From Bacteroidetes bacterium UKL13-3 (lineage in GTDB: Bacteria; Bacteroidota; Bacteroidia; UKL13-3): a stretch of 64,000 bases of DNA. Position 1 is the stretch's first letter. The number at the start of each line of letters is the position of its first letter. A program made the translations under genes and the position numbers. Positions 56,503 through 59,060 of the stretch are shown here, one piece after another. The stretch is from contig CP012155.1 of the NCBI GenBank assembly GCA_001602415.1, forward strand, positions 62,001 through 126,000. The letters run 5' to 3'. A model generated the notes under the pieces. The model ran no database searches, had not been told where the DNA came from, and was given only the letters and a program-made list of their open reading frames with translations.

Positions 56503-56677
56503 GAGGTCTACCACCGCCTCTGCCTGGGTTGGGTTGATTTGTGCCAGGAGACGGAGACTCTCTTCTAAAAGGCTGAGGTGTCGGCTTTGACGGTGGTGGT
56601 GGTGTCGGCTTTGGTGTCGGCTTTGGTGTTGGTTTTGGTGTTGGTGTTGGTTTTGGGTTGTTAGGTTTTTCGCTCAT
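56492..56677 (-). CDS. Proline-rich small protein
   Basis: 61 aa: MSEKPNNPKPTPTPKPTPKP continuing as KPT/PPP repeats, then RRESPSPGTNQPNPGRGGGR. Disordered and basic. It could be a real short protein or the result of a GGTGTT tandem repeat in the DNA. Convergent with the membrane gene, like the pair at 45292/45706. Confidence 0.45.
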   Translation of the reverse strand: MSEKPNNPKPTPTPKPTPKPTPKPTPPPPSKPTPQPFRRESPSPGTNQPNPGRGGGRPPKN

Positions 56678-56812: not shown

Positions 56813-57895
56813 TTAATAGTTATCCAAATCATCAAATGGACTTTTAATATTTTTAATACTTTTGGTAGACACATGCGTATATATTTCAGTCGTTTTTGAG
56901 TGGCTATGACCCAACAATTCTTGAATATACCTCAAATCAGTTCCGGCTTCCAATAAGTGTGTAGCATAGCTGTGCCTCAACCAGTGAAGTGTAACCGGTT
57001 TTTTTATATTAGCCATTGTTACAGCTCGTTTAAGTACGCTCGCTAAACTTCGTTCATCATATTGCCCTCCATACATACCTTCAAATAGGTACTTTTGGGG
57101 TTTGTAGGCTTTATAATAGTCGCGTAACAGTGCCAACACTTTTTCGGATAGCGGAGTGATACGATCTTTATTTCCCTTAGCGCTTTTTATGATGAGTAGT
57201 TTACGGTTGGCATCAATATGTTCAAAGGTTAGATTTAGCAACTCGCTTCGTCTAAGTCCACATGAATAGATAAGTGTAAGCATTGCTCTATGTTTTAAAT
57301 TGGCGCAGGCTTCCAGTATTTTCTTTACTTCTTCTTTGCTCAAAACATTAGGTAGCTGTTTTCCCGATTTTGGTCTGTGAATGGTTTCTGTTTCCATCTT
57401 GGAGTTGAGTACCGTTTTAAAAAAAAGCTTAATGGCATTTACCGTTTGGTTTTGAAACGAGGCAGAATAATTGTGTTTGCGGATGTAGTCGTTATTGTAA
57501 TCAATTACATCCTTATTGGTAATATCTTCAATATCTTTCGCAGTGTAATATTTTAAAAATGTTTTAAGCGCATCACAATATGTTTTAATCGTGTTTTCAC
57601 TGTACCGTTTCGAGCGCATCCACCGCACAAACGATTCTATTTTATCTGTTGCGTGTTTCGGATAGTCATCACTGCTTTTCGGGGTGTAGTGTTGTGCAAT
57701 ACTGTTTATACCACACCAATCGCGGTTAGCTCTGGTATCGGCAATATGCCAAGCTCTTAAACGCGAACTCCAGCGCGAACCAACCAACGTTCGAACCAAC
57801 GTATCCCAATCGGGGCGTTTACTAAATCGTAAGGTTATGCGTTTTTGACCATCATGTTCCACCGGTTCGGCTATCCATTCAGGGGGCATATTCAT
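56813..57895 (-). CDS. Tyrosine recombinase (candidate cassette integrase)
   Basis: 360 aa. An N-terminal ~90-residue domain (RFSKRPDWDTLVRTLVGSRW, then LRAWHIADT) precedes the SAM-like core-binding domain (IESFVRWMRSKRYSENTIKT) and the catalytic domain: Arg in SCGLRRSELLNL, Lys in SAKGNKDRITPL, HWLRHSYATHLL, His in LLGHSHSKTT and Tyr in EIYTHVS. The tail IKSPFDDL resembles the SPLDAL end of IntI proteins, but the IntI-specific insertion before HxLRH (RRHH-type) is missing. The stop lies 23 bp from the last attC-like site. Confidence 0.9.
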   Translation of the reverse strand: MNMPPEWIAEPVEHDGQKRITLRFSKRPDWDTLVRTLVGSRWSSRLRAWHIADTRANRDWCGINSIAQHYTPKSSDDYPKHATDKIESFVRWMRSKRYSENTIKTYCDALKTFLKYYTAKDIEDITNKDVIDYNNDYIRKHNYSASFQNQTVNAIKLFFKTVLNSKMETETIHRPKSGKQLPNVLSKEEVKKILEACANLKHRAMLTLIYSCGLRRSELLNLTFEHIDANRKLLIIKSAKGNKDRITPLSEKVLALLRDYYKAYKPQKYLFEGMYGGQYDERSLASVLKRAVTMANIKKPVTLHWLRHSYATHLLEAGTDLRYIQELLGHSHSKTTEIYTHVSTKSIKNIKSPFDDLDNY

Positions 57896-58003
57896 AGGCT
57901 GTAGGGTTTAATCATGTAAATATAGCTACTTCTTTGAAAAAATCAATTGGTAGCAAGTTGTTATGGATAAGAAAATACAACCGCAGGCACAACCCCCTTG
58001 TTT

Positions 58004-58025
58004 GCGCTAACGTCACGTTAGTGCG
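58004..58025. repeat. REP palindrome downstream of the RAYT gene
   Basis: GCGCTAACGTCACGTTAGTG plus CG, the reverse complement of the core palindrome in the tandem array at 58626-59060. It lies 18 bp beyond the RAYT stop. Confidence 0.85.
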
Positions 58026-58043
58026 ATTTAGCATTCCCATTGG

Positions 58044-58577
58044 TTATCTCAACGGTAAAACGTTTAAAGGACTCTCTTCAGATGCTGAACTGGGCAGGTA
58101 ATGTTTTGGGCGGCTCAGCAATCCCATTTCAACAGGATTCATCAATATATATAACTCTTTTTGATTGATGAATTTTTCGGAATATAATTCTTCGGGATGA
58201 TTACTATGTTGCCAAAACAGATACGCTTGCTTTTGACTTGATAATGAACCTGCTTTTTTGAATGCTTCCAACAACCATTCACGTCTGCTCTCTTGTGGGT
58301 TCAACTTTATTTCCGATAAGATTTTCCGTGCGGTAAATCCTTTTAAGTCCCTCAATAGTTCGCCCAACGTTCCTTCATCAGCTCCAGCTATCATTTGAAT
58401 ATGGCTTGGTAGGATGCAATAGGTATAAAGCAACAACCCCTTCTTCTGTTGACAATACAGTATGCTTTCCAATAAAATATTCACGTAACTGTCTCGGGTA
58501 AAAACAACAATCCCATCAACAACGCTAAACGTAATAAAATAGGCTTTTCCTTCTTGGGTTTTAAGATATTCGGACAT
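58044..58577 (-). CDS. REP-associated tyrosine transposase (RAYT, Y1/HUH superfamily)
   Basis: 177 aa. KAYFITFSVVDGIVVFTRDS, YTYCILPSHIQMIAGADEG and LLRDLKGFTARKILSEIKLN give the TnpA_REP layout; NPVEMGLLSRPKHYL is the typical end. The HUH metal-binding motif usually reads HIHxI; here the second His is Gln (HIQMI), and the nucleophile segment has no Tyr, so activity may be altered. REP-type palindromes of one sequence lie on both sides, as expected for a RAYT with its substrates. Confidence 0.88.
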   Translation of the reverse strand: MSEYLKTQEGKAYFITFSVVDGIVVFTRDSYVNILLESILYCQQKKGLLLYTYCILPSHIQMIAGADEGTLGELLRDLKGFTARKILSEIKLNPQESRREWLLEAFKKAGSLSSQKQAYLFWQHSNHPEELYSEKFINQKELYILMNPVEMGLLSRPKHYLPSSASEESPLNVLPLR

Positions 58578-58625
58578 GAAACTAATATAATTTTTAACTT
58601 AACGATTCATACTTTTAAATGCATG

Positions 58626-59060
58626 TTATTGCTGTGGTCCGTTCGAGCATTAATGTATAGGGGAGTTTTGTCGTTCTAAATTCGCACTAACGTGACGTTA
58701 GCGCGAACAGAGTTATTGCTGTGGTCCGTTTGAGCATTAATGTATAGGGGAGTTTTGTCGTTCTAAATTCGCACTAACGTGACGTTAGCGCGAACAGAGT
58801 TATTGCTGTGGTCCGTTCGAGCATTAATGTATTGGGGAGTTCTGTCGTTCTAAATTCGCACTAACGTGACGTTAGCGCGAACAGAGTTATTGCTGTGGTC
58901 CGTTCGAGCATTAATGTATTGGGGAGTTCTGTTGTTCTAAATTCGCACTAACGTGACGTTAGCGCGAACAGAGTTATTGGGGAGGTCCGTTCGAGCATTA
59001 ATGTATTGGGGAGTTCTGTTGTTCTAAATTCGCACTAACGTGACGTTAGCGCGAACAGAG
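58626..59060 (+). repeat. Five tandem 87-bp units carrying the REP palindrome
   Basis: Units begin TTATTGCTGTGGTCCG at 58626, 58713, 58800, 58887 and 58974 (the last reads TTATTGGGGAGGTCCG). Each contains TTCGCACTAACGTGACGTTA then GCGCGAA, a near-perfect palindrome. Few substitutions separate units, so the array expanded recently. No gene lies in 58578-59108. Confidence 0.93.

Follow-up and report, generated by a model that had tools for sequence, protein, structure and literature searches.

A decaying RAYT element in Bacteroidetes bacterium UKL13-3, a member of a family that probably transposes as a REP-bounded unit

Does a RAYT gene that lies between its REP palindromes, carries an altered HUH motif, and is accompanied by five 87-bp repeats belong to a tame system or to an element that moves as a whole? 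The question is raised by a locus in the window, i.e., the whole stretch of 64,000 nucleotides analyzed here, which is part of the genome of Bacteroidetes bacterium UKL13-3 (3.24 Mb, one contig). The parts of the publications available to us describe RAYTs flanked by REPs as domesticated single-copy genes that are inherited vertically and spread nothing but their REPs (PMC3116915, PMC8049555, PMC6006769). In the accessible text of the 2010 RAYT paper, neither multiple copies nor changes in location were found (PMC2817692), and that of another study discusses, for pseudomonads, the duplication or horizontal acquisition of RAYTs (PMC3686654). In the literature searched, whose coverage excludes many journals, we found no report of a RAYT moving together with its REPs. 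Our analysis indicates that the feature is very probably a decaying copy of a small mobile element that was transposed as a complete unit in its own genome. This element consists of a RAYT gene between two outward-facing REP hairpins and is of the Bacteroidetes type; its family appears to be a mobile REPtron resembling subclass 2.6 of Quentin et al. Its mobility matters, since RAYT genes of this kind are in print as tame and no longer moving.

The RAYT gene and its active site

The RAYT gene (positions 58044 to 58577, minus strand) encodes a protein of 177 amino acids. This open reading frame (ORF) scored 73.4 bits against the NCBIfam model REP_Tyr_transpos, below the cutoff of 80, and a Pfam search returned no family at an E value of 0.001. 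Its translation bears out the HIQMI segment that the first-pass annotation had read, so that the HUH motif is HIQ (H59, Q61). The same annotation had pointed to the lack of a Tyr in the segment LKGFTARKIL. This is literally correct but irrelevant, because position 81 of this segment is F, H, Y, or N across 42 loci; the Tyr at the catalytic position is Y143, within YILMNP. The 42 loci, a subset of all the matches listed, comprise the RAYT loci recovered by homologue searches and the copies of the UKL13-3 genome, of which those at 556 and 1662 kb share an identical protein. Y143, which forms part of a Y---NP motif, is present in all 42 loci, the window copy included, and N147 of this motif in 41. 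The first His of the HUH motif is likewise found in 42 loci and the second in 41, the Gln of the window copy (H61Q) being the sole exception. A profile of 33 sequences finds the Escherichia coli TnpAREP 4er8 (E value of 1.5e-6), and its YIHxNPV segment aligns with YIYINPV of 4er8. As far as the accessible text of the sources goes, Y---NP is the class 2 signature of the TnpAY1 superfamily (PMC6006769), and, for the E. coli enzyme, Y115F is given as a catalytic mutant (PMC8266576). The Tyr is thus in place, and the window copy has lost the second His of its HUH motif.

Three substitutions of the window copy, namely, H61Q, W22G, and D24V, fall in nearly invariant columns of the 33-sequence alignment. 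With the 521-kb copy as the reference for polarization, we assigned 12 nonsynonymous and 6 synonymous changes to the window lineage and 3 nonsynonymous and 8 synonymous changes to the 556-kb lineage, which represents the other copies; 12 further changes could be assigned to neither. The window RAYT is a broken member of its family, and this copy, its enzyme included, is probably inactive. The first-pass annotation had left a choice between a dead enzyme with a relic array and a lineage with a variant active site. The dead enzyme fits the window copy, as seen in the three substitutions and in the ratios of 12:6 versus 3:8. The other branch failed on the comparison that the annotation itself had proposed as a refutation: the close homologues have a normal HUH motif, which reads HIH or HVH in the copies at 556, 1662, and 521 kb and, by eye, also in the truncated copy at 1433 kb. 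A lineage that employs HIQ without a Tyr has only the HIQ of the window copy in its favor; H-x-H in 41 of the 42 loci, including the full-length close copies, and the Tyr in all 42 render it vanishingly improbable, and we ruled it out. The Gln, private to the window copy, is thus a sign of decay rather than part of a variant site.

The window RAYT also possesses the WQ motif (FWQ), the SS motif (LSSAS), and the length of 177 residues. It shares several features with TnpAREP/RAYT subclass 2.6 (Bertels group 5; Quentin et al. 2018, PMC6006769), a likeness of motifs rather than of a subclass profile. According to the accessible part of that paper, subclass 2.6 has the HUH, WQ, and Y---NP motifs and a median length of 179 amino acids; hairpins without a GT[AG]G head flank the gene, and copies of these hairpins are found elsewhere in the genome. 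The HUH context differs, since it is SH in the window family and NH in subclass 2.6.

Copies of the element in its own genome and in other bacteria

The genome contains four full-length RAYT copies, at 120 (window), 521, 556, and 1662 kb. Also present are a truncated copy with a TAG stop (1433 kb), a 3' fragment (3130 kb), and a distant (41%) paralogue (3013 kb). The elements at 556 and 1662 kb measure 710 bp each from hairpin outer edge to hairpin outer edge and are identical at 709 of the 710 positions; the single differing base lies inside a hairpin. To the right of both are extra end units of the element. BLAST at an E value of 1e-3 detected no similarity between their flanks, either in 1 kb to the left or in the 1 kb that follows the 3' end units. 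Such copies in unrelated flanks indicate therefore that the RAYT gene and its two REPs moved as a single unit, a pattern that, judged from sequence, marks a recent insertion sequence. The core element of the window, which extends over about 708 bp from the 3' REP to the innermost 5' REP (58000 to 58708, minus strand), is 92% identical to both. Intact, nearly identical copies had not been among the expectations of the first-pass annotation, and their presence in the same genome argues that the element is mobile. The mobility of the family in its own genome is thus well supported by sequence comparison.

RAYT relatives were detected in 28 of 64 genomes in a search of the order (E value of 1e-20) and in 65 of 392 genomes in a sample of the phylum (E value of 1e-25), the UKL13-3 genome being included in both. 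We compared 90 RAYT pairs within 26 other genomes that have at least two matches, 14 from the phylum sample and 12 from the order search (G060, with a partial second match, was excluded). Duplicates extending from REP to REP were found in 5 of these 26 genomes. They form seven pairs with nucleotide identities of 75 to 96%, namely, 95 to 96% in G435, 90% in G048, 88% in G083, 87% in G042, and 75% in G276. In all seven pairs, the similarity spans the element from one terminal hairpin to the other and ends within a few bases outside. Beyond the hairpins, no second match was obtained at an E value of 1e-5 in the available flanks of the G435, G048, and G083 pairs, and only short extra end pieces were present in those of G042 and G276. 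No REP-to-REP duplicate was found in the remaining 21 genomes: the G041 pair has a hairpin edge at the right side only, the alignments terminate within the gene in G344 and G387 and fall short of the hairpins in G040, G208, and G033, and 15 genomes gave no alignment of 350 bp. Within the phylum sample of 392 genomes, only that of UKL13-3 yielded two equally scoring matches, so that evidence of very recent movement is confined to this genome. As a separate observation, three RAYT elements that are 95 to 96% alike lie within 3.5 kb on one contig of G435 (C77:96857-100268; L141, L142, and L144), each of them having REP ends of its own and flanks unlike those of the others, which resembles local hopping.

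These data bear on two other explanations of the locus. It could be an ordinary domesticated RAYT, single-copy and immobile, with a BIME-like REP array alongside. This would agree with the published description cited above and with the tandem REP clusters already known next to RAYTs (PMC3116915, accessible part), and 50 of the 65 phylum-sample genomes with a match have only one. However, the several copies in the UKL13-3 genome, two of them nearly identical in different flanks, and the REP-bounded duplicates in five other genomes do not match a single-copy, immobile gene, and we consider this explanation improbable. Alternatively, the copies could stem from ordinary recombination, that is, from segmental duplication or gene conversion of old copies with no transposition. 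Gene conversion is able to render old copies identical, and the only difference between the 556- and 1662-kb copies is confined to a hairpin, but the similarity ends at the hairpins on both sides in this pair as well as in the seven pairs from five genomes. There is no reason for recombination to halt at hairpins, and we give this explanation little credence.

Transposition of the complete unit is also compatible with what is found at individual loci. The gene adjoining the window element is comF, and RAYT is present at comF in the UKL13-3 genome only; the comF neighborhood (3.6 to 3.7 kb) contained no RAYT in 11 of 11 relatives. This comparison covered 12 of 26 loci, one of them that of UKL13-3, and the relatives are too distant for an exact junction. 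In genus g14, the same thioredoxin-like gene has a RAYT next to it in G055 and G060 but not in G063, the right (far) flank of which differs. A precise empty site was seen neither at this locus nor at comF in the 11 relatives. As a separate observation, the 521-kb RAYT has on one side an intact GTPase gene, presumably TypA/BipA-like, and on the other a 119-bp duplicate of the 3' end of this gene (94% identical), as if the insertion had been accompanied by a duplication of the gene end (L038, 520000 to 524000 of the genome; the two stretches at 1362 to 1480 and 2323 to 2441).

Mobility is also what sets the window family apart from its closest published counterparts, as far as the accessible part of PMC6006769 goes. 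Subclass 2.6 has 1.8 copies per genome with a mean identity of 40.7%, and its REPtrons are said not to seem to transpose as a unit, whereas the window family has near-identical REP-to-REP copies. TnpAY1 subclass 2.3 is likewise class 2 and RAYT-like with several copies per genome (mean of 3.9, 74.8% identity), and its spreading is termed recent and active; unlike the window family, it occurs in Chromatiales and Alteromonadales, has a median length of 325 amino acids and extra domains, and lacks adjoining REP-like hairpins. TIRYT elements (Di Nocera et al. 2013, PMC3733652) resemble the window family in having a RAYT-like gene between inverted repeats that are also found elsewhere in the genome, but these repeats carry GGGGWSAS motifs; 20 of 26 TIRYTs belong to subclass 2.1, with an extra C-terminal domain (PMC6006769). 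A mobile RAYT unit makes it possible to test how an IS200-like transposon became a REP/RAYT system and how REP arrays form.

The terminal hairpins and their G·T wobble

The 3' end of the window element is a terminal REP hairpin at 58000 to 58026, with its head on the plus strand, and the 5' boundary of the core element is the innermost 5' REP hairpin at 58681 to 58708 (minus strand). The head of the latter is GTTC; that of the former is GTTT, which is GTTC in the other copies. The palindrome that had been noticed on both sides of the gene was indeed located there, with its core at 58005 to 58023 and at five places from 58685 to 59051, and the two flanking palindromes are mutually inverted. With up to three mismatches and on both strands, the core has 12 matches in the window, compared to 0.09 expected by chance. 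The genome-wide count that had been suggested yielded, again with up to three mismatches, 32 forward and 31 reverse matches, many hairpins matching on both strands, versus 2 and 1 for a backwards control. The window family is thus one in which the gene is flanked by hairpins that have copies elsewhere in the genome. An oriented 26-mer, GTTCRCGC-N13-GTGYG, has 34 exact matches in this genome (control, 0) and 69 in the 14 genomes searched; among the 69, at least four of five positions of the inner N13 are paired in 65, and R is paired with Y, as G-C or A-T, in 67. The copy at 521 kb has a palindrome of its own, yet the same GTTC head. The canonical 5' GT(A/G)G head of REPs is therefore replaced by GTTC, in line with the published text on subclass 2.6.

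Inverted repeats (score of at least 18) joined both flanks at 28 of 40 RAYT loci, compared to 3 of 120 mismatched flank pairs. The element might be moved in trans by a resident IS200-type transposase rather than by its RAYT, and the genome does encode three IS200-type Y1 transposases with identical scores (1047438, 2537944, and 2718804), possibly a second set of active HUH elements. Yet the palindromes are diverse among RAYT genes whereas the two flanks of one gene are alike, which suggests a dedicated enzyme, and we regard movement in trans as quite unlikely. Elements of the IS200/IS605 type (IS608, ISDra2) are similar to the window family in having HUH and one Tyr, terminal hairpins, and several near-identical copies per genome. 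The window family differs from them in its inverted end hairpins, in having Y---NP instead of Y---Q, and in the absence of tnpB from its 710-bp element. Both end hairpins of IS200/IS605 are recognized on the same strand; the ends of RAYT elements are inverted REPs by both sequence and wobble.

The wobble referred to is a G·T pair in the hairpin stem. We read the 5' palindromes on the strand whose 5' end points outward and the 3' ends likewise from outside. Among 44 distinct 5' palindromes, 31 had only G·T, 2 only A·C, 1 both, and 10 neither; the corresponding numbers for 50 3' palindromes were 35, 1, 2, and 12. Other loop limits gave 31, 1, 2, and 11 for 45 5' palindromes. The palindromes are mutually related, so that 31:2 does not stand for 33 independent events. 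These counts omit loci with a terminal repeat score below 18, no hairpin, short flanks, or a palindrome already counted, and 15 loci that are present twice were left out of both these counts and the array-edge counts given below. The 5' set contains 35 wobbles, most of them at pair 7 (23) or pair 8 (6), counted from the loop; the G is on the 5' arm in 34, and the one reversed wobble is at pair 3. The other stem pairs of the 5' palindromes are variable, with compensation. A matched control with the same arm and wobble limits, consisting of 193 hairpins more than 500 bases away, showed no such bias (66 G·T, 66 A·C, 20 both, and 41 none), and G·T was at pair 7 in only 6 of the 193. With a higher score cut, 79 control hairpins gave 17, 13, 8, and 41, and stricter limits gave 34 G·T versus 31 A·C. 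As a result of the wobble, the strand with the head folds better than its complement (-11.4 versus -9.2 kcal/mol for the UKL13-3 REP and -10.2 versus -8.0 kcal/mol for that of G055).

In the accessible part of PMC8266576, group 2 enzymes are said to require a bulge in the stem, and GTAG serves strand discrimination in group 3. By analogy, the G·T wobble could be a third solution to strand discrimination. We found no paper in the literature searched that connects TnpAREP with a wobble and no mention of it in the available text of PMC6006769. The REPtron/REPIN/BIME systems of Pseudomonas, Stenotrophomonas, and E. coli (groups 2 and 3) also have a RAYT between inverted REPs and tandem REP arrays alongside; the window family differs from them in its GTTC rather than GTAG head, in the mobility of the gene itself, and in its strand mark, which is possibly the G·T wobble instead of a bulge or GTAG head. 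With such a mark, a subclass whose hairpins were termed atypical would gain a concrete recognition signal that can be mutated. For the chemistry and the strand rule, as well as for the origin of the array, we infer the following course of events. The HUH/Tyr enzyme of an intact copy would cut single-stranded DNA beside the GTTC-headed hairpin, would rely on the head and on the polar G·T wobble of the stem to find the correct strand, and would move the segment between the two REPs without target duplication. The ends of the window copy could still be substrates for intact copies.

Arrays of element ends

The five near-identical tandem 87-bp units described in the first-pass annotation were recovered as an array of 5'-end units at 58625 to 59060 (minus strand, 97% matches). 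Each unit is composed of a REP hairpin (28 bp with its head) and a leader of about 59 bp. Outward from the innermost REP, the hairpins of units 2 to 5 are at 58768 to 58795, 58855 to 58882, 58942 to 58969, and 59029 to 59056 (all on the minus strand), the last of which is the 5' limit of the element. Contiguous arrays of 5' or 3' ends, with units of 64 to 285 bp, were present at 17 of 101 RAYT loci. The outer edge of the array is 3 to 12 nt from the terminal hairpin in 11 of these 17 arrays and the inner edge in none, compared to 7% for random positions; the count retains the 1662-kb locus although its gene is equal to that at 556 kb. The 1662-kb array has six copies of an 81-bp unit made of the gene end and the 3' REP, and the unit of the G060 array takes in approximately the first 50 codons. 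The window array of 5' ends, the 1662-kb array of 3' ends, and the G060 array show therefore that the process works on either end of the element, often with one edge fixed and the other free. These edges fit an enzyme cut at the REP joined to a second, internal cut.

The 87-bp array may accordingly have arisen from repeated end-only events, in which one cut falls at the outer edge of the REP and another within the element, or else from replication slippage at the hairpin. That the array is a mere product of such slippage, unconnected with the transposase, is a substantial possibility, to which we assign somewhat less than an even chance. The units stand head to tail, shifted self-alignments are 93 to 98% identical, by eye, a few bases at the junctions are common to the alternative edge in both the window array and that at 1662 kb, and hairpin-primed slippage could yield part of the edge pattern. 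On the other hand, arrays recur at 17 RAYT loci and at both ends of the element, and the fixation of the outer but not the inner edge near the terminal hairpin exceeds that at random positions. Extending the enzymatic origin, we tentatively propose, as a view that falls just short of an even chance, that RAYT systems in this phylum still live as insertion sequences, in which the RAYT and two REPs would move together, a wobble at about pair 7 would mark the strand, and arrays would grow by terminal plus internal cuts that copy ends in place. If true, this would make them a living link from IS200-like ancestors to domesticated RAYT/REP systems.

Element ends also occur in other combinations. The genome contains miniature elements of about 175 to 205 bp, bounded by a GTTCGCGC hairpin on one side and by a GTTCACGC hairpin on the opposite one (559542 to 559714, 1662037 to 1662209, 2914160 to 2914332, and 2981869 to 2982041). 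With ends like those of the RAYT element, they look like REPIN-type derivatives; one adjoins the remnant of a Y1 transposase gene. At 559.5 to 560.0 kb (L031), right-end units of the RAYT element and a miniature element form a composite cluster in one tandem run.

Beside the window RAYT, at 56813 to 57895, is a gene for a tyrosine recombinase that is XerA-like or integron integrase-like. We considered the array as a set of integron-like attC sites of this integrase and set this aside: inspection of the ORFs of at least 90 amino acids around the 556-kb copy (8.0-kb locus) and the 1662-kb copy (5.5-kb locus) revealed no such gene, and the palindrome spacing of the window array does not fit attC. 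A fragment of a recombinase paralogue adjoins the truncated RAYT at 1433 kb (L033), by eye in the other relative orientation. At 56594 to 56660, a minisatellite with 6- and 12-bp periods (TGGTGT and TGGTGTTGGCTT) forms part of a small ORF whose translation contains a Pro-Thr-Pro-Lys repeat.
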